Origin: a bacterium
GTDB taxonomy: Bacteria > Bacillota > Sulfobacillia > UBA995
Assembly: GCA_031082145.1 (NCBI GenBank)
Contig: JAVHLP010000005.1
Location: forward strand, 1-34,675
Reading direction: 5' to 3'
Length of the DNA: 34,675 nucleotides
Part shown: one piece after another, positions 3,061 to 20,812 of the stretch
How the letters are laid out: the number at the start of each line of letters is the position of its first letter
How positions within the stretch are numbered: the stretch's first letter is position 1
Program-made: the position numbers and the translations under genes
Notes under the pieces: generated by a model
Told to the model about the DNA's origin: nothing
Databases searched by the model: none
Seen by the model: only the letters and a program-made list of their open reading frames with translations

Positions 3061-3815
3061 GCGAGCCGTGGTACGTGGAGCTGTTCAGCTCTGGGCTATA
3101 CCAGGATATCGTCCGGGGACAGACCGCTGCGGCCAATCGCTTGCAGGCGGGGTTCGTGGCCCGGGTCCTGGACCTCCCGCCAGGGGCCGACATTCTCGAC
3201 CTCTGCTGTGGTGACGGGCGCATCGCGGTGGAACTGGCCCGCTTGGGCTACCGGGTTACCGGCTACGACCTGGCGGTTCCCCTGCTGGACGCCGCTCGAA
3301 GCCGGGCGACGGAGGCGGGCGTGGAGCTCGAACTGGTGCATGGGGACATGCGGGACTTGCCGTTCACCAGGACCTTCGCCGGCGCCGTCAACTTCTTCAC
3401 GTCTTTCGGCTACTTTGACGACGGGGAGAACGAAGCAGTCATCCAGGGAGTGGCCCGGGTGCTGGCCCCCGGGGGACGCTTCCTGATCGACGTGATCAAC
3501 CGCGACTACCTGGTAGCCCGGGGCAGTCCGCGGGAGTGGCATGAGAATGACCGAGTTCTCTTCGTGGGCACCCGGGAACTGGATCTGCCGACCTCGCGCA
3601 GCCGTGCCACCTGGACGATCCTGGACAAGCGGGAGGCCTGGGCCCGGCGAGAGTACCGGGTGGACGTCAGGGTCTACTCTGCTCACGAACTGGGCTCCAT
3701 CTTGGTCCGGGCCGGTCTTGAGCCGCTGGCCTGGTACGGAAACTACGAGGGAGCTCCGCTGGCCGTGGACCTGCCTCGGTTGGTGACGGTTGCCGAAAAG
3801 GCTCCTGCGAGGTAG
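3057..3815 (+). CDS. class I SAM-dependent methyltransferase
   Basis: A 252-residue protein with a Rossmann-type methyltransferase core. Motif I is ILDLCCGDGRIAVELARLG (residues about 46-64), followed by an acidic post-I residue in VTGYDLAVPLLDAAR, then GDMRDLPF and a motif IV region (AVNFFTSFGYFD). The SAM site is therefore clear, but the substrate is not. The family is broad (Methyltransf_25/11-like), and the C-terminal half contains beta-rich segments seen in small-molecule methyltransferases. Its ATG overlaps the valS stop by four bases, so it is translationally coupled and probably co-transcribed under the T-box. Co-transcription with valS need not mean related function. Confidence 0.85.
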   Translation: MSEPWYVELFSSGLYQDIVRGQTAAANRLQAGFVARVLDLPPGADILDLCCGDGRIAVELARLGYRVTGYDLAVPLLDAARSRATEAGVELELVHGDMRDLPFTRTFAGAVNFFTSFGYFDDGENEAVIQGVARVLAPGGRFLIDVINRDYLVARGSPREWHENDRVLFVGTRELDLPTSRSRATWTILDKREAWARREYRVDVRVYSAHELGSILVRAGLEPLAWYGNYEGAPLAVDLPRLVTVAEKAPAR

Positions 3816-3895
3816 TGCTCCAGCACGGGTCGGGCCTCCCCCCGGGGAACCTCCCGTAACCGGGCATCGTCTGTACGGGTTGGGGAGGTTGGCCC

Positions 3896-4609
3896 GTGCT
3901 CTCACTCCGAGGCATACACCGGGTATACCGGACGGGTCGGGTGGAAGTCCACGCCCTGCGGGGGATTGACCTGGAGATCGGCGCCGGCGAGTTCGTGACC
4001 ATCATGGGACCTTCCGGCTCGGGCAAGTCCACCTTGCTCAATGTGATCGGCTGCCTCGATCGTCCCTCTCGGGGTGGCTACTCCCTGGCCGGCCGCGAGG
4101 TGGACGGTCTGGGGGATCGTGACCTGGCCTGTCTCCGCAACGAGACCCTTGGGTTCGTGTTCCAGACCTTCAACCTCCTGCCCCGGCTCACCGCCGGTGA
4201 GAACGTTGAACTGCCTCTTGTCTACCGGGGCATTGGGGGCTCTGAGCGGCGAGGCCGGGCCCGGGCCGCCCTGGAGCGGGTGGGCTTGGGCGCCCGGGGT
4301 CATCACCGGCCCACCGAACTCTCCGGTGGCGAACAGCAGCGGGTGGCCATTGCGCGGGCCCTGGTAGGAGAGCCCCGGGTGGTCCTGGCCGACGAACCCA
4401 CGGGTAACCTGGACAGCGGCACCAGTGAGGAGATCATGGGTATCTTCCGGCGGCTGAACGAAGAGGAGGGGCTGACCCTGGTGCAGGTCAGTCACGATCC
4501 CGTGATGGCCCGGCATGGAAAGCGCATAGTTTACCTGCGGGATGGCGTTGTCACCGGCGACGAGCAGATCGCCGCCGCCCTACGGTCACCGCTGGCCACC
4601 GCGGGTTAG
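3896..4609 (+). CDS. ABC transporter ATPase, MacB/LolD type
   Basis: ATP-hydrolysing subunit (237 residues) of an FtsX-type (type VII) ABC system. Walker A is GPSGSGKST, the Q-loop region is [13 protein letters not shown], the signature is [15 protein letters not shown], Walker B is [12 protein letters not shown], and the H-loop lies in [25 protein letters not shown] and DEPTGNLD are typical of the MacB/LolD/YknY branch. Start is GTG at 3896 with GGGGAGGT six bases upstream. It is followed at close spacing by an adaptor and a permease gene, so the three most likely form one exporter or mechanotransmission complex. The 80-base gap from the methyltransferase gene has no clear terminator or promoter. 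Substrate cannot be read from sequence. Confidence 0.93.
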
Positions 4610-4643
4610 CCGGTCCCGCAGACCGGCCGAGGAGGGCGATCAG

Positions 4644-6263
4644 GTGCAGGTTGTCGGCGTCCTGAAGCGGTTTCTCATCCCCGTGCTCATAGCCGGCATG
4701 CTCCTCTACGGCGGCCAGTGGGCATTGGGGCAACTACTGCCGCCACCACCGGGGCAGGGGGCCCCGGTCTACGCCACGGCGGAGGTCGTCCGGGGAGTCA
4801 TGCGGGTCGCGGTGGAGGGTGTGGGCAACCTCCAACCCATCTTCCTCAGCAGCCTGGAAGCGCCGGTGGAGGGCTTCGTGGAGACGGTGCTGATCGAGCG
4901 GGGACAGAGGGTGGAGCCGGGCCAGGTGGTCATGACCCTCAAGAGCGACGAGATCGGCTACGAGGTGGCCGATCTCCAGTTCAAGATCGAGCGCATGCGG
5001 CTGGAACTGGCGCAGCTCCTGGGCGTGGCGCCGACCAGGACCACCGAGGTCGATCCCAGCCTGGGGATCGGCATCACCGCCCCCATCGGCGGCAGGGTCT
5101 CCGAGCTCCTGGTCGGCCGGGGTGACGCCGTGGGCCAGGGCAGTGCGGTGGCCCGGATCGTCGACGATTCCCGGGTCGTCATCGTGGCCGAGCTGGTGAC
5201 CTACGAGATTGAACGGGTGGCCGTTGACCAGGAGGTCGAGATACGGTCCCCCCTGTTCGACGGCAGCATGCGGGGCAAGGTCACGCTGGTCGACCGGACT
5301 CCCATACCCAGCGGCACTCATTTCGTCTACCGGGCCCAGGTTGAGGCGGACAACCCGGGCCTCCTGCAACCCGGCATGGAAGTGTTCCTGACCTTCGCGA
5401 CCGCCCAGGGCCGGCTGTCGGTCCCGCGGGAACAGAGGATTGACCGCTACTGGCAGGAGGCCCTGGTCCGGAGCTTGGCCCAGGGAACAGTCGACCATAC
5501 CGCGGTGAAAGAGTGGGCCCGGGTGAAGGCCGGGGACACCCTGTTGACACTGGGGGGTGAGGCAACGACCCAGTTCATCCAGGGGCGGCAACTGGACATC
5601 CGTCAGAAGGAACTGGAACTGGCCAGAAAGCAGGGCGTCCGGGAGCAACTGGTCGTCCGGTCACCTATTGCCGGCGTGGTGGAGTGGGTGCACGTGCGGC
5701 CGGGGACCAAGGTTATGCCGGGCTGGGGCCTGGCCGCCATCTTCGACCAGAGCCGGATGAACCTTCACATCATGGTGGACGAACTGGACGTTGTTCACCT
5801 CCAGGAAGGCCAGATCGCCCGGATCGCCGTGGACGCCCTTCCCGGCCGCAGCTGGGAGGCCAAAGTGCTCCGGGTGGACATGCAGGGACGTAGCCAGGAT
5901 GGTATCGCCCAGTACGGAGTGTCCCTGGAAGTCGGAGAGACTGCCGAGCTTAAGCCGGGCATGACCGCCCATGTAAGTATCCACATCGCCGAGAAGCCGG
6001 ACGCCTTGTTGGTGCCCATTGAGGCCGTGTTCGAGCAGGACCGCCGGGCGATGGTCGAGGTCCTGGGCCCCCGGGGCCCGGAGGCGGTGGCCATCGTCCT
6101 GGGGCTGGTCAACGACCGCTTTGCGGAAGTGCTGGAGGGCTTGGAGGCCGGACAGCACGTGGTAACCGGTAGCTCGCTGGACCGGCTGGACCGGGATGGG
6201 CGGGACGGGGGGGCGCCACCTCAACAGGAGCCCATCCCGGTCTTCCCGAAAACCGGGGGCTAG
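4644..6263 (+). CDS. membrane-fusion (HlyD/YknX-type) adaptor with two tandem units
   Basis: A 539-residue extracytoplasmic adaptor anchored by one N-terminal membrane segment (about residues 10-30, FLIPVLIAGMLLYGG). Two separate barrel-sandwich/beta-barrel units can be traced. Unit 1 runs from about residue 41 (PVYATAEVVRGVM), with half-motifs around EAPVEGFVETVLIERGQ and APIGGRVSELLVGRGD (residue 146 on), and ends near LSVPREQ. Unit 2 begins after a short linker, with a helical segment (QLDIRQKELELARKQ) and SPIAGVVEWVHVRPGTKV at residue 340 on, and ends with LKPGMTAHVSIHI and a YknX-like tail. Usual adaptors have one unit and about 350-420 residues. I use the GTG at 4644 with GGAGGG seven bases upstream. 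The longer frame from 4542 overlaps the ATPase gene and codes an unlikely Arg/Pro-rich start. Confidence 0.88.
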   Translation: MQVVGVLKRFLIPVLIAGMLLYGGQWALGQLLPPPPGQGAPVYATAEVVRGVMRVAVEGVGNLQPIFLSSLEAPVEGFVETVLIERGQRVEPGQVVMTLKSDEIGYEVADLQFKIERMRLELAQLLGVAPTRTTEVDPSLGIGITAPIGGRVSELLVGRGDAVGQGSAVARIVDDSRVVIVAELVTYEIERVAVDQEVEIRSPLFDGSMRGKVTLVDRTPIPSGTHFVYRAQVEADNPGLLQPGMEVFLTFATAQGRLSVPREQRIDRYWQEALVRSLAQGTVDHTAVKEWARVKAGDTLLTLGGEATTQFIQGRQLDIRQKELELARKQGVREQLVVRSPIAGVVEWVHVRPGTKVMPGWGLAAIFDQSRMNLHIMVDELDVVHLQEGQIARIAVDALPGRSWEAKVLRVDMQGRSQDGIAQYGVSLEVGETAELKPGMTAHVSIHIAEKPDALLVPIEAVFEQDRRAMVEVLGPRGPEAVAIVLGLVNDRFAEVLEGLEAGQHVVTGSSLDRLDRDGRDGGAPPQQEPIPVFPKTGG

Positions 6264-13393: not shown

Positions 13394-14440
13394 ATGTTCG
13401 AATTCGTGTACGGCTGGTTGTCACGGGATATGGGAGTGGACCTGGGAACCGCCAATACCCTAGTTTACGTCAGGGGTCAGGGGATAGTCCTTCAGGAGCC
13501 ATCAGTAGTTGCCTTGCAGCGGGAGAGCGGGGGAATCCTGGCCGTGGGCGAAGAGGCCCGCCAGATGATCGGGCGTACGCCAGGGAATATCGTCGCTATC
13601 CGCCCCATGAAGGACGGGGTCATAGCCGACTATGAGGTCACCCAGACCATGCTCCGGCACTTCATTGCCAAGGCCGCCAGCCGCCGGGGTGTCCTCCGGC
13701 CGCGGGTAGTCGTGGCCGTGCCTTCGGGCTGCACCGAGGTGGAGAAACGGGCCGTGATCGACGCCACCTTGCAGGCCGGGGCCAGGGAAGCCTACACGGT
13801 GGAAGAGCCGATGGCCGCCGCCATCGGGGCCGGGCTACCGGTCCAGGAGCCTACCGGCAACATGGTCGTGGATGTAGGTGGTGGCACTACCGAGGTGGCC
13901 ATCATCTCCCTGGGCGGTATCGTCGCCGCCCGCTCGATCCGGGTGGCCGGTGACGAACTGGACGAAGCCATTGTCGCCTATGTCAAACGTACCTACAACC
14001 TTCTAATAGGCGAGCGGACGGCCGAGGACGTCAAGATCCGTATCGGTTCGGCCTACCTGCCGGACAAGAAACGGGGGCAGCCGGTCTACGAGGTCCGGGG
14101 AAGAGATCTGGTCAGCGGCCTGCCGAAGACGCTCACCGTGACGGCGGTGGAGATCCACGACGCCCTGGCCGAGCCGGTCACCGCTATCATCGAGGCCATC
14201 AAGGTGACCCTGGAAAGGACCCCCCCCGAACTGGCTTCGGACATCATGGATCGGGGGATAGTGCTGACGGGAGGCTCGGCACAGCTCAAGGGGCTTGACA
14301 CCAGGATCGCCGAGGAGACGGGAATGCCGGTTCACGTCGCCGACGACCCTCTGCTCTGCGTCGTCCGCGGCGCCGGCAAGGTACTGGAGGAGCTGGAGGC
14401 CCTGCGCCGGATAGTCTCCAGTCACAGGCGATCGAACTAG
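13394..14440 (+). CDS. mreB: rod shape-determining protein MreB
   Basis: Actin-like ATPase of 348 residues that forms membrane-associated filaments and directs lateral wall synthesis. Phosphate-1 is [18 protein letters not shown] (about residues 15-32), the phosphate-2 region is [19 protein letters not shown], and the adenosine region is [15 protein letters not shown]. The N-terminus ([12 protein letters not shown]) looks like the hydrophobic/amphipathic membrane-binding end. It is followed by mreC, mreD and mrdA in one operon. The RBS is weak (AAAGGGCGG, distant), which is notable beside the strong sites of the neighbours. Confidence 0.97.
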
Positions 14441-14461: not shown

Positions 14462-15316
14462 ATGGGCAGGTACCGCAAACCGATCCTCTCCCTCCTGTTG
14501 GTGCTGGCGACGGTTACCCTCGTCAGCCTGACCGCGCGGGAGCGAGAACGGGTCAGCTGGCTGGAACAGCAGGCCGTGGAACTGCTGGCTCCGGTGCAGG
14601 CCGCCTTCAGCCAGACCGCCCAGCGGGTGCGGGAGGCGGCGGCCGGGCTGTCCGAGCTGGCGGAAGTCCGGGTGGAAAACGTCGCCCTCCGGGATCAACT
14701 GCAGCGGCTGCCTTGGCTGGAGCAGGAGTTGCTCGAGTTACGGGCCGAGAACGAGCGGCTGCGGCAGCTGGTGGGATTCAGCCAGGCCCAGCCTTTCAGC
14801 TTCACAGCCGCCCGCCTGATAGCCCGCAATCCCGACAACTGGTTCAGCTACGCCGTCATGGACAAGGGTTCTCGGGACGGGATCGCCCGCGACATGCCGG
14901 TGGTCACCCATGGCGGGCTGGTGGGGCGGGTGGTCCGGGTCAGCCCGCGTACTTCAACCGTGCTCTTCCTGGTGGATCGGGACAGCGGGGTGGCCGCGCG
15001 AGTGTACCGCCCTGGCGACCAGAAGACCTTGCCCGAGACGGAGAGCTACGGCGTGGTACTGGGGCAGGGGGCCCAGCAGCCTGTTCTCCACCTGCGGATC
15101 TTCTCTCACGAGGCGCGGGTTGAGCCAGGTGACCGGGTGGTGACCTCGGGGCTGGGAGGCGTCTTCCCGCCGGGTCTTGCGGTAGGCGAGGTGCTGGCCG
15201 TCACCGGGGACGAACTGGGACTGTCCAAGACCGCGACGGTCGCCCCCGCGGTGGATTTCCACCGCCTCCTCGAGGTGCTCATCATCACCGATCCGCGCCC
15301 GGAGGAGATCCCATGA
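14462..15316 (+). CDS. mreC: rod shape-determining protein MreC
   Basis: A 284-residue bitopic membrane protein linking MreB to the extracytoplasmic wall machinery. One N-terminal membrane helix (about residues 6-24, PILSLLLVLATVTLVSLTA), a coiled coil (about 60-108, ending in AENERLRQLVGF), then the beta-barrel domain with MDKGSRDGIARDMPVV and TSGLGGVFPPGLAVGEV, both MreC hallmarks. ATG start with AGGAAGGT upstream. Its end overlaps mreD (ATGA), so the pair is translationally coupled. Confidence 0.96.
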   Translation: MGRYRKPILSLLLVLATVTLVSLTARERERVSWLEQQAVELLAPVQAAFSQTAQRVREAAAGLSELAEVRVENVALRDQLQRLPWLEQELLELRAENERLRQLVGFSQAQPFSFTAARLIARNPDNWFSYAVMDKGSRDGIARDMPVVTHGGLVGRVVRVSPRTSTVLFLVDRDSGVAARVYRPGDQKTLPETESYGVVLGQGAQQPVLHLRIFSHEARVEPGDRVVTSGLGGVFPPGLAVGEVLAVTGDELGLSKTATVAPAVDFHRLLEVLIITDPRPEEIP

Positions 15317-15819
15317 GGCCGTGGGTCTTCCTGAGCGTGGCCGCGGGAGCGCTTGTTCTGCAGGGTGCCGTTGTTCCTCACCTGGCCGTAGGCCAGGTGA
15401 GGCCGGATCTGGTCCTGCTGGTGGCCCTGGCCTACGGCCTGTTGTATGGGCCGGAGGCAGGAGGTCGTTTCGGGTTTGTCAGTGGGCTGCTGCAAGATAT
15501 CCTGCTGGGGAAGTACGTGGGGGTCTTCGCCCTGACCCGTGCGTGCGCCGGCTACCTGGCCGGTCTGGCCGAACGCCGTTTCTACAAGGAGCAACTGCTG
15601 ATCCTGGTCGGTGTCACCGCTCTGGCTTCGGTGCTAACCGACCTCCTGTTTATGGGGCTGATGGGGGCCTTCGGGTACCCCCTGCGGTTCACCTTTAGCC
15701 TGCGGACGGTGGTCTTGCCCGCCGGCCTCTACAACGGACTGCTCTCCCCGCTGGTATACCGGGGGATGACCTCCCTGCGGGACTTCGAGCGAGCCCGTCA
15801 CAAGGCAACCGGGGCTTGA
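15313..15819 (+). CDS. mreD: rod shape-determining protein MreD
   Basis: A 168-residue, highly hydrophobic membrane protein of the elongasome with about five membrane segments, beginning with WVFLSVAAGALVLQGAVVP and including RPDLVLLVALAYGLLYGPEAG and GLLQDILLG, a characteristic MreD motif region. ATG start overlaps the mreC stop and GGAGGAG lies within the end of mreC. mrdA follows after 13 bases. Confidence 0.94.
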   Translation: MRPWVFLSVAAGALVLQGAVVPHLAVGQVRPDLVLLVALAYGLLYGPEAGGRFGFVSGLLQDILLGKYVGVFALTRACAGYLAGLAERRFYKEQLLILVGVTALASVLTDLLFMGLMGAFGYPLRFTFSLRTVVLPAGLYNGLLSPLVYRGMTSLRDFERARHKATGA

Positions 15820-15832
15820 GAGGAGGAGGGGT

Positions 15833-17704
15833 TTGAGGCAGCAAGACCGTCGCAAGGAAGAAACCCATCGTCGCCTGGGTCTCTTCCAGGCCTTGCTGCT
15901 CCTCACGTTCCTGCTCCTGATGTCCCGGGCAGCCTACCTTCAAGTTGTCCGGGGACCTCACTATGAGGCTCTGGCCCGCAGCAACGCCCTGCGCCTGGTC
16001 ACCCTGCCCGCTCCCCGGGGCCGCATTCTCGACCGGAACGGCGAACTCCTGGCCGGCAACCGTCCCGCCTACCACGTGTCTCTGGTCCATCCCGGCACCG
16101 GCAAGGTGGACGCCGTCGTGGAGGCCGTCGCCCCGCTGCTGGACATGACTCCCGCCGAGATCCACGAGCTCATTCGCCGCCGGGGTGATCGCCTGTTCGA
16201 ACCGGTTCGACTGAAGATGGACGTGGATCCCATCGCTCACAGCCGGGTGGAGGAGAACCGGGGCAACCTGCCGGGGGTCGTCATTGAGGTGGGGCCGGTA
16301 CGGGATTACCCGGGAGGGAGCCTGGCCGCCCACGTCCTGGGATATGTGGGTGAGATCGACGGCGGCGAGTTGGCCCGCTTGGAGGGCTACCGCCTTGGGG
16401 ACATCCTGGGGAAGACAGGTCTCGAAGCTTACTATGACCTGGAACTCCGCGGCCGGGACGGCGGGCGCCAGGTTGAGACCGATGCCATGCACCGGCCGAT
16501 CCGGGTCTTGGGGCAGATAGACCCCGTGCCTGGTAATAGCCTGGTGCTCACCATCGATGCCGGGCTTCAACGAGTGGCCGAGGAAGCCCTGGTGGCCACC
16601 ATGGAAATGGTGCGCGCTCACCCCCGCAACCCCTATCGTGCCACCTCAGGCGCGGTAGTGGTCCTCGGCGTGGGGACCGGAGAGGTGCTGGCCTTGGCAA
16701 GCCACCCTTCTTTTGACCCTAACCTCTTTGCCAGCCGGACCCCCAGGGACTACCTGGAAGCTCTTCGAACCGACCCTCTGAGTCCTTTTCTTAGCCGCGC
16801 CACCTCGGGAGTCTACGCCCCCGGCTCGGCCTTCAAGATGATCACCGCGATGGCCGCCCTCGAGTCGGCTCGGGTCACTCCCACCGAGAGAATCACCTGC
16901 ACGGGAGTCTACCGGGTTACGGCTGACCACTCCAAGCGCTGCTGGTCGGCACACGGTCCGGTCAACATCTACGAAGCGATCGCCAAGTCCTGCAACGTGT
17001 TCTTTTACGAGATGGCCAGGCGCGTAGGCGTCGATCTCCTAGCCCTCCACGCCCGGTCTTTCGGCTTGGGCCAGGCCATCGGTCTCGACCTCCGACCCGC
17101 TGACAAGGCGGGAACGGTACCCGATCGGGAGTGGAAGCGGGCCCGGTTCTCCGGTGACCCGACATTCTGGCTGGCCGAGGAGCTTGACGCCGCCATCGGT
17201 CAGGGGTTTCACGAGTATACGCCCCTGCAGATGGCTCAGTACGTTGCCACCATCGCCAGTGGGGGAGTCAGGTATCAGCCTTACCTGGTCAGCCAGGTAC
17301 TGGACCCCTCGGGACGAATCCTCAGTAACACTACCCCGCGGGTTGTGGCCGAGGCGGCCGTCTCGCCCGAGACCCTCGCCATTGTGAAGGAGGGCATGCG
17401 CCAGACGACGCTCTACGGCACGGCCTCCTGGCTCTTCGGTCCCGGTTTTGGCCAGCGCTATGGGTTTGAGCTGGCGGGAAAGACGGGAACGGCCGAAGCC
17501 CTCAAGGGGTCGGGCAAGGACCACAATGCCTGGTTCGTGGCTTTCGCCCCTTTCGAAAACCCCCGGATCGCCATCGCCGTCCTTGTTGAGGAGGGAGGCA
17601 GCGGTAGTCTCGCCGCGGCCCCTGTAGCCAGGGCTATTATCGAATATTACTTCGACCTGGTCTCCCGACCACCTGCCCAACTGCCGACGGAGCCCGGCGA
17701 CTGA
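15833..17704 (+). CDS. mrdA: penicillin-binding protein 2 (transpeptidase)
   Basis: Class B PBP of 623 residues that cross-links peptidoglycan during elongation, partner of RodA. One membrane helix at about residues 16-38 (FQALLLLTFLLLMSRAAYLQ), a PBP dimerisation domain (RGRILDRNGELLAGNRPAYH and the following 200 residues), then the transpeptidase domain with SAFK (active Ser332), SCN at 386-388 and KTGTAEA starting at residue 550. All three catalytic motifs are intact. Start is TTG at 15833, directly behind a strong AGGAGGAGGGG, close spacing. An SPOVD-like role is less likely because no PASTA domain is present and the gene follows mreD. Confidence 0.95.
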   Translation: MRQQDRRKEETHRRLGLFQALLLLTFLLLMSRAAYLQVVRGPHYEALARSNALRLVTLPAPRGRILDRNGELLAGNRPAYHVSLVHPGTGKVDAVVEAVAPLLDMTPAEIHELIRRRGDRLFEPVRLKMDVDPIAHSRVEENRGNLPGVVIEVGPVRDYPGGSLAAHVLGYVGEIDGGELARLEGYRLGDILGKTGLEAYYDLELRGRDGGRQVETDAMHRPIRVLGQIDPVPGNSLVLTIDAGLQRVAEEALVATMEMVRAHPRNPYRATSGAVVVLGVGTGEVLALASHPSFDPNLFASRTPRDYLEALRTDPLSPFLSRATSGVYAPGSAFKMITAMAALESARVTPTERITCTGVYRVTADHSKRCWSAHGPVNIYEAIAKSCNVFFYEMARRVGVDLLALHARSFGLGQAIGLDLRPADKAGTVPDREWKRARFSGDPTFWLAEELDAAIGQGFHEYTPLQMAQYVATIASGGVRYQPYLVSQVLDPSGRILSNTTPRVVAEAAVSPETLAIVKEGMRQTTLYGTASWLFGPGFGQRYGFELAGKTGTAEALKGSGKDHNAWFVAFAPFENPRIAIAVLVEEGGSGSLAAAPVARAIIEYYFDLVSRPPAQLPTEPGD

Positions 17705-17842
17705 GTTCCCCTTGCCGTCGAAGCTACCCCCTCCTTGTCCTGATTCCACGGATAATCCCCCACGAAAGTCAATTCCAATGGTAGGAACCTGGAAAATGAT
17801 CCTAGAACCTCTCTCGAGCCTCGAACGGAGGGGTGAAGAAGG
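17705..17842. other. 138-base gap before minC, no clear signal
   Basis: The gap between mrdA and minC is noticeably richer in A and T than its surroundings. It contains GATAAT (17751-17756) but no -35 at the right distance, and TTCCA...TGGAA (17773-17777 and 17789-17793) as a weak inverted repeat. No open frame of interest and no terminator. A promoter for minCDE is plausible but not demonstrated. Confidence 0.35.
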
Positions 17843-18451
17843 TTGAAGTCGAGGAGATCCAAAGGTTCGCAGGCTTCCCCCCCGGCAGGCCGGCGCCAGG
17901 CCAAGAGCGGACCCGCTGCCACAACTCCCATCGACGAAGCGCCTGGGCCCCTCGCTGATGCCTGTGAACCCCTTGTGGAAGTAGACGAGTTCGCCACCGA
18001 CGCCACCCCCCTCGCGACCGGGGAGCAACCCGTTTCCCTGGCCGTGAAGGGTGAACCGCTCCGTTCCGAACTCATCCTCTCCGGCGAGCGGGGCGATGGT
18101 GATACCCTGCTGGTCAGGAAGACCCTTCGCTCGGGGCAGCACGTGGGCCATCGGGGCAACGTGGTTGTTCTAGGGGATGTCAACCCCGGGGCGGAGGTGG
18201 TGGCCGGCGGAGACATCGTGGTCCTGGGGGCCCTTCGCGGGGTGGCCCATGCCGGCGCCCGCGGCGATGAAGCGGCGGTGGTGGCGGGCTTCCGGCTTCG
18301 CCCCACCCAGTTGAGAATCGGCAACTATATCGCCCGGGCTCCCGACGGGGACATCACAGGACCCGAGTTGCCCGAGGTGGCGCAGGTGAAGGAGGGCCGG
18401 GTGATCATCCGTCCCTACCATTCCGCCGGTAGACCGCGACCCCGGCTGTAG
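17843..18451 (+). CDS. minC: MinC-like septum inhibitor lacking the N-terminal domain
   Basis: A 202-residue protein. Residues about 86-185 match the MinC C-terminal beta-helix, which binds MinD and dimerises: LLVRKTLRSGQHVGHRGNVV, LGDVNPGAEVVAGGDIVVLG, ALRGVAHAGARGDEAAVVAG and LRPTQLRIGNYIARAPDG. The first 85 residues are low-complexity, basic then acidic, rich in Ala, Pro, Ser and Glu (SQASPPAGRRQAKSGPAATT), and do not resemble MinC_N, the FtsZ-depolymerising domain. An in-frame TGA at 17834 blocks any upstream extension. Start is TTG at 17843 with GGAGGGG nine bases upstream. minD and minE follow, so it is very likely expressed with its partner. A linker may tether the MinD-binding domain to something else. 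Confidence 0.85.
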   Translation: MKSRRSKGSQASPPAGRRQAKSGPAATTPIDEAPGPLADACEPLVEVDEFATDATPLATGEQPVSLAVKGEPLRSELILSGERGDGDTLLVRKTLRSGQHVGHRGNVVVLGDVNPGAEVVAGGDIVVLGALRGVAHAGARGDEAAVVAGFRLRPTQLRIGNYIARAPDGDITGPELPEVAQVKEGRVIIRPYHSAGRPRPRL

Positions 18452-18480: not shown

Positions 18481-19281
18481 ATGGGCGAAGTCATCGTGGT
18501 TACCTCCGGCAAGGGGGGGGTCGGCAAGACGACCACCACGGCGAACCTCGGGATGTCACTGGCGCTCCTCGGGCACCGGATAGCCCTGGTGGACGCGGAC
18601 ATCGGCTTGAGGAACCTGGACATCGTGCTGGGTCTGGAGAACCGGATCGTCTACGACGTGGTGGACGTGGTCGAGGGGTTCTGCCGCCTCAAGCAGGCAC
18701 TGATCAAGGACAAACGCCTCGACGGTCTCTGCCTTCTTCCGGCGGCCCAGACCAGGGACAAGAGCGCCGTCAGCCCCGACCAAATGCGAGGCGTCTGCGC
18801 CGACCTGGCCCGAGACCATGACTATGTGTTGGTGGACTCGCCGGCAGGCATCGAGCAGGGCTTCCGCTCGGCGGCCGCCGGTGCCCGGCGGGCGGTGATC
18901 GTCACCACTCCCGAGGTGATGGCAGTGCGGGACGCCGATCGCATCATCGGCCTCCTGGAAGCCATGGGGATCCGCGAGCCCGAACTCGTCGTCAACCGCA
19001 TCCGCCCGGCCATGGTCCGGCGAGGAGACATGATGGACATCGAGGACATCATAGACATACTCGCCATCGAGCTCCTGGGTGTGGTTCCTGAAGACGACGT
19101 CATGCTCGTATCCGGTAACCGGGGTGAACCCGCCGCCTTGAACGGGTCTTCCCGGGCCGGGGAAGCCTTCCGCAATATCGCCCGCCGGCTCCGGGGCGAG
19201 AGTGTCCCTCTATACGAACTGGAGCGGACCCGGGGCGTGCTTGGGCGGATCAGGAGGCTGGTCGGCGTTGAACGCAGCTAA
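18481..19281 (+). CDS. minD: septum site-determining ATPase MinD
   Basis: ParA/MinD-family ATPase of 266 residues that binds the membrane as an ATP dimer and recruits MinC. Deviant Walker A SGKGGVGKTT at residues 9-18, VDADIGLRNLDIVLGLENRI (switch region), and VLVDSPAGIEQGF (Walker B). The last residues GRIRRLVGVERS form a short basic amphipathic tail, the expected membrane-targeting sequence. ATG at 18481 with a G-rich RBS. An ATG four bases earlier is out of frame. Confidence 0.97.
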   Translation: MGEVIVVTSGKGGVGKTTTTANLGMSLALLGHRIALVDADIGLRNLDIVLGLENRIVYDVVDVVEGFCRLKQALIKDKRLDGLCLLPAAQTRDKSAVSPDQMRGVCADLARDHDYVLVDSPAGIEQGFRSAAAGARRAVIVTTPEVMAVRDADRIIGLLEAMGIREPELVVNRIRPAMVRRGDMMDIEDIIDILAIELLGVVPEDDVMLVSGNRGEPAALNGSSRAGEAFRNIARRLRGESVPLYELERTRGVLGRIRRLVGVERS

Positions 19282-19570
19282 GGAAATGGTGTCGGGGTTG
19301 TTGGGCTGGCTCCGCAGGGATCCCGTGCGCCGCCAGAGCGGGCGCCTGGCCCGCGAACGCCTGCGACTAGTGTTGGTGCATGATCGAACCCACACCTCTC
19401 CCGGCATCCTCGAGATGCTGCGAGAGGATCTGGTCGACGTCATCTCATCCTACATGGACATCGACAGGGGCGCCATGGAGGTGAGCCTGTCCAGGGCCGG
19501 CGACTCGGTCATGGTGGTGGCCAGCATCCCGGTGATCGGGGTGCGCCGCCAGCTTCCCGGGGCGGGCTGA
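19268..19570 (+). CDS. minE: cell division topological factor MinE
   Basis: About 100 residues. Stimulates MinD ATPase and drives its release from the membrane. The N-terminal amphipathic helix is GLLGWLRRD, the anti-MinCD region is ARERLRLVLVHDRTHTSPG, and the topological domain includes LREDLVDVISSYMDIDRGAM. Start choice: TTG at 19268 has AGGAGG ten bases upstream and overlaps minD by 14 bases. ATG 19286 or GTG 19289 are alternatives with only AAGGAA too close. Presence of MinE rather than DivIVA suggests an oscillating or gradient-forming Min system. Confidence 0.9.
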   Translation: MNAAKEMVSGLLGWLRRDPVRRQSGRLARERLRLVLVHDRTHTSPGILEMLREDLVDVISSYMDIDRGAMEVSLSRAGDSVMVVASIPVIGVRRQLPGAG

Positions 19571-19672: not shown

Positions 19673-20812
19673 ATGCGCCACTGGGGCCGTCGCGTGTTCC
19701 GCAATCTGGACTACGTGCTGCTGGTAACGGTCTTGCTGCTGGTGATCTTCAGCGTGATGATGGTGACCAGCGCCACGCTCCACCGACCGGTCGGCGGAGA
19801 TCCCTACTTCTACACGAAGAAGCAAGCCACTTGGGCGATCCTGGGGTTCGCGCTGATGGTCCTCATGGTGCTGGTTGACTACATCAACTTCCAGCGCTGG
19901 GCTCCCTACCTGTACGCCGGCATGCTGGCCCTGCTCGGGCTGGTGCTCTTCCTGGGGCGGGCCAGCCACGGCTCGCAGCGGTGGCTGCCATTGGGTGGGC
20001 TTGACCTGCAGCCCTCGGAAACTGGTAAGCTGCTGATCATCTTGTGCCTGGCCGCGCTGCTGAGTCGCCGGACCACCCCCATCCGGGGCTGGGCGGAGTT
20101 CGTACCGGTGCTGGCCTTTGTGGGACTGCCCATGCTGCTGGTGATCCGGCAGCCGGACCTGGGGACATCTCTCGTGTTCGCAGGTATAATGCTGGGTGTC
20201 CTCTTCATCTCCGGTGCCTGCTGGCAGAAACTCGCCCTGCTCACCGGCGGAGGCCTGGGAGCGGTCGTGGCCGCTTTCTTCCTGCACCTCAGGCACGGGT
20301 TGCGGCTCCCCCTGTTGCCCCACCAGATCAGTCGGCTCGTAGTGTTCCTCGATCCGCAGGTCGACCCCCTCGGCACCGGCTACCATCTGCGCCAGTCCCT
20401 CATCGCTGTAGGGGCGGGGAACATATGGGGACAGGGCCTCTTCTCCGGTAGCCAGAACCAACTCAAGTTCCTGCCCGAACAGCACACCGACTTCATCTTC
20501 GCGGTCATCGGCGAGGAACTCGGACTGGTGGGCGTGGGGGTTCTCCTTCTCCTGTACCTGATCCTGCTCGTACGGGCGGTCCGGATCGCCGGTGAAGCCC
20601 GGGAGACGTACGGCACCCTGGTGGCGGGCGGGGTGGCGGCCATGATCGCTTTCCACGTTCTTGTAAACGTGGGGATGGCCATGGGCGTCATGCCCATCAC
20701 CGGCCTCCCGCTCCCGTTCATGAGCTACGGTGGCAACAACCTCATCCTCAACTTCGCCGCGGTGGGCTTGCTCGAGAGCATCCGCCTGCGGCGCCACGGG
20801 ATCTTCTTCTGA
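19673..20812 (+). CDS. rodA: SEDS glycosyltransferase RodA/FtsW family
   Basis: A 379-residue polytopic membrane enzyme (about ten helices) that polymerises lipid II into glycan strands, working with PBP2. SEDS features: DYVLLVTVLLLVIFSVMMV helix 1, KATWAILGFALMV, DLQPSETGKLL, RQPDLGTSLVF, GSQNQLKFLPEQHTDFIFAV with the catalytic Asp, and GLPLPFMSYGGNNLILN near the end. It is called RodA because it lies with mreBCD-mrdA. SpoVE/FtsW cannot be excluded by sequence. ATG start, GGAG nine bases upstream. Confidence 0.92.
   Translation: MRHWGRRVFRNLDYVLLVTVLLLVIFSVMMVTSATLHRPVGGDPYFYTKKQATWAILGFALMVLMVLVDYINFQRWAPYLYAGMLALLGLVLFLGRASHGSQRWLPLGGLDLQPSETGKLLIILCLAALLSRRTTPIRGWAEFVPVLAFVGLPMLLVIRQPDLGTSLVFAGIMLGVLFISGACWQKLALLTGGGLGAVVAAFFLHLRHGLRLPLLPHQISRLVVFLDPQVDPLGTGYHLRQSLIAVGAGNIWGQGLFSGSQNQLKFLPEQHTDFIFAVIGEELGLVGVGVLLLLYLILLVRAVRIAGEARETYGTLVAGGVAAMIAFHVLVNVGMAMGVMPITGLPLPFMSYGGNNLILNFAAVGLLESIRLRRHGIFF

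Follow-up and report, generated by a model that had tools for sequence, protein, structure and literature searches.

What can MinC do in a Min system when it lacks the domain that elsewhere shortens FtsZ filaments? The shares of the N-terminal domain (MinC_N), in the attack on filaments, and of the C-terminal domain with MinD (MinC_C/MinD), at the FtsZ tail, have been studied largely with domain constructs of E. coli. The question is raised here by a chromosomal gene in a stretch of 34,675 nucleotides (the window) from a bacterium of the class Sulfobacillia (UBA995). Its minC adjoins minD and minE in the gene order mreB-mreC-mreD-PBP2-minC-minD-minE-rodA. A first-pass annotation, made from the letters of the window, read it as MinC without MinC_N: a conserved C-terminal domain preceded by some 85 low-complexity residues. 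The features of the locus are:

13394-14440, + strand: mreB (PF06723)
14462-15316, + strand: mreC (PF04085)
15313-15819, + strand: mreD (PF04093)
15833-17704, + strand: penicillin-binding protein 2, mrdA-like (PF00905, PF03717)
17827-17833, + strand: putative ribosome-binding site GGAGGGG, preceding the minC start (sequence reading)
17834-17836, + strand: in-frame TGA closing the minC frame upstream (sequence reading)
17843-18451, + strand: N-less minC, TTG start, 202 aa (ORF, PF03775, TIGR01222)
17843-18112, + strand: N-terminal tail of about 90 aa, predicted disordered, without MinC_N (hhalign, AF2, dN/dS)
18113-18409, + strand: MinC_C beta-helix domain with the RSGQ motif (Pfam, AF2, Foldseek)
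18481-19281, + strand: minD, intact (TIGR01968, 388.5 bits, cut-off 212.9)
19286-19570, + strand: minE (PF03776, 1.5e-20; TIGR01215, 66.9, cut-off 49.3), with a probable start at ATG 19286 in a frame open from 19202
19673-20812, + strand: rodA/ftsW-type SEDS protein (PF01098)

A minC gene reduced to its C-terminal domain

The protein passes the family cut-offs for MinC and has the motif and gene context of one, but it fails the two-domain definition. MinC_C (PF03775) is matched by residues 91-189 with 113.3 bits (E = 6.1e-33; cut-off 33.2), and the NCBIfam equivalog for minC (TIGR01222) is narrowly passed, with 96.0 bits against a cut-off of 95.25, over profile positions 120-224 of 226 only. 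The motif RSGQ, which mediates MinD binding in E. coli (excerpts of PMC6803595), is present. In the AF2 model, pLDDT is 96-98 over residues 91-160 and 80-96 over residues 161-190; residues 1-85 are without secondary structure, and blocks within residues 1-80 have pLDDT of 45-58. The best Foldseek match of the predicted structure is the Aquifex MinC:MinD complex 4v02 (1.2e-12), with other MinC structures also among the best, and the predicted MinC_C fold also resembles the MinCD filament 6riq. A FapA-type beta-solenoid (PF03961, 20.3 bits, below the cut-off of 31) and a bactofilin-like protein (Foldseek match to BacA at E 1.2 only) were rejected as identities. MinD, with the conserved stretch PEVMAVRDADR, and MinE both pass their NCBIfam cut-offs (TIGR01968 and TIGR01215) and are intact, as the first-pass annotation had stated.

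For MinC_N, the Pfam model PF05209 matches neither the protein (E <= 1) nor any part of the organism's whole genome (E <= 10; 2.34 Mb in 34 contigs, 98.3% complete). MinC_C occurs once in this genome, and no second MinC was found there. Because PF05209 is weak, exceeding its own cut-off in just 2 of the 14 genomes used as controls, a class-specific profile, A1, was built from MinC_N domains of the class (32 rows). Against the PDB, A1 recovers four MinC entries (2m4i, 1.1e-6; 1hf2, 1.6e-5; 3ghf, 3.2e-4; 4l1c, 1.2e-3), which are outscored by the designed protein 4hhu (1.4e-7). Iterated on a first set of 59 class MinC proteins, it finds MinC_N in 44 and none in 15, a count that includes one protein truncated at a contig edge among the 15 (L022) and one half match among the 44 (L023, of genome G024). 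A six-frame search of the window's genome at E <= 10 gives two partial A1 matches (14.8 and 11.8 bits), neither on the contig that carries minC and both, by eye, inside ribosomal protein S13-like and RuvB-like frames. With hhalign, N-less tails align to MinC_N at probabilities of 0.0-0.2; positive controls kept out of the template, four MinC_N families in turn, reach 96.9-99.8, and MinC2 reaches 92.6. The AF2 model has no MinC_N. With Pfam, the six-frame A1 scan, hhalign and AF2 in agreement, the loss of the MinC_N domain, first proposed from the sequence, is near certain. The TGA at 17834 does end the frame upstream, and since the six-frame scan is without a match near minC, no frameshift near 17705-18110 conceals MinC_N, including the interval 17705-17843 in which the first-pass annotation had allowed for one.

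The loss is common to six order-mates (G001, G003-G007). Within the window's family (f1), the N-termini of G001 and G003 are likewise short and preceded by stops, and a third member, G002, has no MinC_C match. Among the window's genome (G000), G001 and G003, which represent three genera, MinC_C is identical at 84-88 of 98 residues (86-90%), without gaps, at dN/dS of 0.05-0.06, and the tail is identical at 22-36 of 82-89 residues (27-40%), at dN/dS of 0.32-0.46; all these ratios are rough, dS being >1. Judged from these alignments, MinC_C is under strong purifying selection, and because of this selection and the likeness of the six order-mates, a frameshift error is excluded. The C-terminal domain is as well conserved as had been claimed. 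For the first 85 residues the term low-complexity does not stand; disordered and weakly conserved describes them better, given their pLDDT and the low identity of the tail.

In the sister family f2 (L018, L021, L031 and L032, from four genera), divergent tails contain an N-terminal motif around EPEILEGLARDIVSRLAATLFGEDDVP, and RSGQ is replaced by RSGR (three proteins) or RSGK (one). The f2 motif EILEGLARDIVSRLAATLFGE resembled helix 1 of MinC_N by eye, and the tail was considered as a MinC_N relic; the idea was rejected, since by hhalign the motif is not MinC_N (0.1-0.2, no better than reversed tails). In Sulfobacillus-like short MinC proteins (L014, L015, L053, L056, L062, L064, L093), a conserved stretch near DWEDEARRHPTLLIRR stands directly before the C domain.

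N-less MinC in the class and in other Bacillota

N-less MinC is common both in the class and among other Bacillota, usually together with an unlinked MinC that bears MinC_N. What is unusual in the window's genome is that this second MinC is missing as well. The class survey covered 154 genomes, searched with PF03775 and A1, and found MinC_C at E <= 0.001 in 141. The listed MinC_C matches and nine further ones were paired with those N-domain matches that reached E <= 1e-4, and N matches left without a partner were counted as second copies. Among the matches listed, 139 genomes could be placed: 75 with one N-bearing MinC, 4 with two, 48 with both an N-less and an N-bearing MinC, and 12 with N-less MinC only. 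Removal of G050, whose gene is broken by a contig end, reduces the 48 to 47 (G024, with a half-lost N domain, was kept), and a second, MinC_N-bearing MinC is therefore present in 47 of the 59 N-less class genomes among the matches listed. Two of the twelve were set aside (G119, 83% complete, and G133, 59%), the rest of their family having both MinC genes. The ten N-less-only genomes that are left among the matches listed represent five families: G000, G001 and G003-G007 of the window's order, G008, G009 and G076.

Two further observations concern single genomes or families. The minD-linked minC of G024 (L023) matches MinC_N profile positions 3-47 only, and the second MinC of that genome keeps MinC_N; the former is possibly a half-decayed intermediate. 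Three near-complete genomes of family f9 (G014, G039, G088) have FtsZ and no MinC_C match.

Among named loci retrieved with an N-less query, 36 of 80 are without MinC_N, which is no measure of prevalence because the query itself is N-less. Following 29 of the 36 into their genomes, near relatives left out, a second MinC with MinC_N (E <= 1e-4) was found in 28, the exception being a 1.4-Mb assembly (G180); four of the genomes share coordinates with class genomes (G044, G113, G124, G139), which leaves 24 of 25 as independent cases. Desulforamulus putei, Pelotomaculum and Carboxydocella are examples with a short MinC and a MinC_N-bearing second MinC. Each of the 61 N-less minC loci examined also carries MinD, and in the 30 MinC2 loci (5-8 kb each) no MinD-like frame was found. 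By eye, the neighbours of MinC2 give no consistent functional hint: at L185, L188 and L194 it adjoins a Nudix-like gene, with a glycogen-synthase-like gene nearby, and at L133 and L136 it adjoins FliK-like genes.

A MinC_C+MinD tree was built with 141 rows, taken from 148 loci (left out were two loci without MinD beside MinC and five duplicates or contig-edge copies; the half-matching copy of G024 was scored as N-bearing). On it the N-domain state changes 11 times, against a shuffled mean of about 45. The deep nodes of this tree are weak, and its strongly supported branches alone are compatible with one origin. The MinC2 clade test tree has 5 changes, on long branches. The MinC_C+MinD tree, read with its weak deep nodes, implies that the N-less state arose repeatedly in the class and in other Bacillota.

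The FtsZ tail and its tethers

According to excerpts of PMC4117426, the FtsZ tail is the first binding site of MinC/MinD, through the C-terminal domain, and the E. coli tail mutants D373E, I374V, A376P, L378V and K380M are insensitive to MinC-C/MinD. The tail in the window's genome is DELDLPAWLRGAPDPKFLR, most genomes reading DLDIPAFLRR-like; relative to the E. coli tail of PMC4117426, I374 is replaced by L, F377 by W and K380 by G. In a first sample, I374 was changed in 5 of 8 N-less-only genomes versus 0 of 17 N-bearing ones. In a wider sample of 107 FtsZ tails, 5 of the 9 readable N-less-only genomes have L or V at position 374, and 10 of the 83 readable N-bearing genomes have V (Fisher p 0.005, taking no account of relatedness), and the valines of the N-bearing group led to the rejection of an I374 change as a mark of lost MinC contact. 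W or Y occurs at position 377 in 4 of the 9 N-less-only genomes, in 0 of the 83 N-bearing and in 0 of 7 without MinC; for the first two groups the Fisher p is 4.5e-5, with relatedness ignored and the comparison chosen after the data had been seen. The readable N-less-only tails include that of G119 (83% complete, from a family otherwise with both MinC genes). Tails were unreadable in 1 of 10 N-less-only (G004), 3 of 86 N-bearing (G091, G092, G144) and 3 of 10 no-MinC genomes, and G028, whose MinC is a contig-edge fragment, was left out of the N-bearing group.

FtsA (PF02491) was found neither in the window's genome nor in G001, and SepF is found where FtsA is missing, in the window's family and in G076. 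Of the four genomes in which F377 is changed, three (G000, G001, G076) are without FtsA, so that its loss is a competing cause of the change; against this, F is retained in G030 and G055, which also lack FtsA. The FtsZ tail was rejected as proof of lost MinC contact or of a mechanism, the comparison being post hoc and FtsA loss competing as its cause. Only one of the two tethers FtsA and SepF is present in 7 of 9 N-less-only genomes versus 3 of 11 others (Fisher p 0.07); counted by family (3 of 5 versus 3 of 9, p 0.58), the absence of FtsA or SepF as a companion of N loss is not supported.

In the window's genome, by eye, ftsZ directly follows a ftsQ/divIB-like gene, with no ftsA between them (L300, G000:C29:146500-156000; ftsQ-like 3690-4457, ftsZ 4567-5634). 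Downstream of ftsZ at this locus are, again by eye, spoIIGA-sigE-sigG-like genes, which suggest that the organism is a spore former.

What a C-domain-only MinC may do

The first-pass annotation had left two roles for the protein, delivery of a different activity and inhibition of FtsZ through the C-terminal domain only, and the latter is most likely the best reading of its function. We give slightly better than an even chance to the fuller explanation, namely, a selected C-only MinC with a disordered tail, patterned by MinD and MinE, that antagonizes FtsZ at its tail. The C domain would dimerize and bind MinD, MinD would recruit the MinC_C dimer to the membrane, and MinE would displace it and so create a pattern. 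MinC_C/MinD would bind the FtsZ C-terminal tail and block tail-dependent tethering or bundling, keeping the poles free of Z-rings; the filament-shortening step, done elsewhere by MinC_N, would be absent. According to excerpts of PMC6803595, both MinC domains inhibit FtsZ and MinC-N shortens the filaments, while isolated MinC-C binds stabilized FtsZ filaments, blocks their lateral association, and needs MinD or MinDE to cause filamentation. As to origin, MinC_N would have been dropped from the minD-linked gene more than once in the class and in other Bacillota, an unlinked paralogue usually retaining it; none was found in the window's order. In favor of the explanation are the kept RSGQ, the minC-minD-minE linkage, the 4v02/6riq-like fold and the dN/dS of MinC_C (0.05-0.06). 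Against it are the FtsZ tail of f1, altered at positions that include I374 and K380, which are critical for MinC-C in E. coli, and the RSGR or RSGK of f2. Excerpts of the literature also state that both MinC domains are necessary for Z-ring placement (PMC9051478) and that MinC-C alone is unable to prevent FtsZ sedimentation (PMC6803595).

The altered f1 tail and the W or Y at position 377 (4 of 9 versus 0 of 83) could instead mean that N-less MinC is no longer an FtsZ regulator and has become a MinD partner with another activity, exerted through its tail or surface, for example on the elongation machinery or other cargo. The conserved N-terminal motif of four f2 genera, which is not MinC_N, and the neighbors of minC (mreBCD, PBP2 and rodA) would suit such a role. 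However, FtsA loss in G000, G001 and G076 may explain the F377 change (G030 and G055 keeping F), I374V occurs also in 10 of 83 N-bearing genomes, and the tail of the window's MinC is hardly conserved; we consider this role unlikely.

The unlinked MinC_N-bearing MinC in 47 class genomes among the matches listed and in 24 of 25 further genomes raises the idea that an undetected or unassembled gene supplies MinC_N function in trans, and the window's genome is an assembly of 34 contigs, 98.3% complete. This is quite improbable, since the seven MinC-holding genomes of the order, five of them 92-98% complete, have no second MinC_C and no convincing MinC_N among the matches listed, where the order's best A1 match (G006, E 0.0087) is, by eye, a SpoIIIAH-like protein. 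Still less probable is a degenerating minC heading for loss: although the tail evolves fast and near-complete genomes such as G014, G039 and G088 are without a MinC_C match, MinC_C is gap-free across three genera at dN/dS of about 0.06, and minD and minE are intact. An assembly frameshift or wrong start hiding a normal MinC_N, for which only the stop just upstream at 17834 speaks, is scarcely credible in view of the six-frame scan around minC, the equally short G001 and G003 with their upstream stops, and the negative AF2 and hhalign results.

The C-only FtsZ-tail antagonist that we favor has partial counterparts in known systems. Two-domain MinC (Thermotoga maritima 1hf2; E. coli, B. subtilis) has the same MinC_C fold and RSGQ (for E. 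coli, excerpts of PMC6803595), but the window protein has a disordered tail in place of MinC_N. The predicted C domain matches that of the MinC_C:MinD complex or filament (Aquifex 4v02, Pseudomonas 6riq), and in the window's MinC it is the entire folded part. The source proteins of 4v02 and 6riq presumably also carry MinC_N. Isolated E. coli MinC-C (Shiomi and Margolin 2007, as cited in excerpts of PMC6803595 and PMC9051478) is likewise C-domain-only and would share the dependence on MinD, whereas the window's MinC is natural, chromosomal and the only MinC detected. The short MinC proteins of Desulforamulus putei, Pelotomaculum, Carboxydocella and Sulfobacillus are also N-less, with MinD on the same locus, but their genomes hold an unlinked MinC_N-bearing MinC and the window's genome does not. 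In the open-licence literature, no report was found of a natural N-less MinC or of a two-gene MinC split.

A wider reading is tentative, and we regard it as rather doubtful. Min would be rewired in the window's order, with no MinC_N left, a drifted FtsZ tail, and MinC_C/MinD acting by tail competition alone or on a non-FtsZ target, and Bacillota would have repeatedly divided the MinC activities over two genes, one C-only and MinD-linked, the other an orphan with both domains. If so, the repeated split would imply that the C-only protein is under selection for a function that can be separated from FtsZ depolymerization. Routine annotation masks N-less MinC, as the NCBI MinC model (TIGR01222) is still passed. 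The N-less lineages are natural experiments, in which MinD is retained and MinC_N has been dropped from the minD-linked gene, survives on a second gene, or was not detected at all, and they make a separate function of MinC_C directly testable, including in Desulforamulus putei DSM 12395 and Carboxydocella thermautotrophica strain 41.
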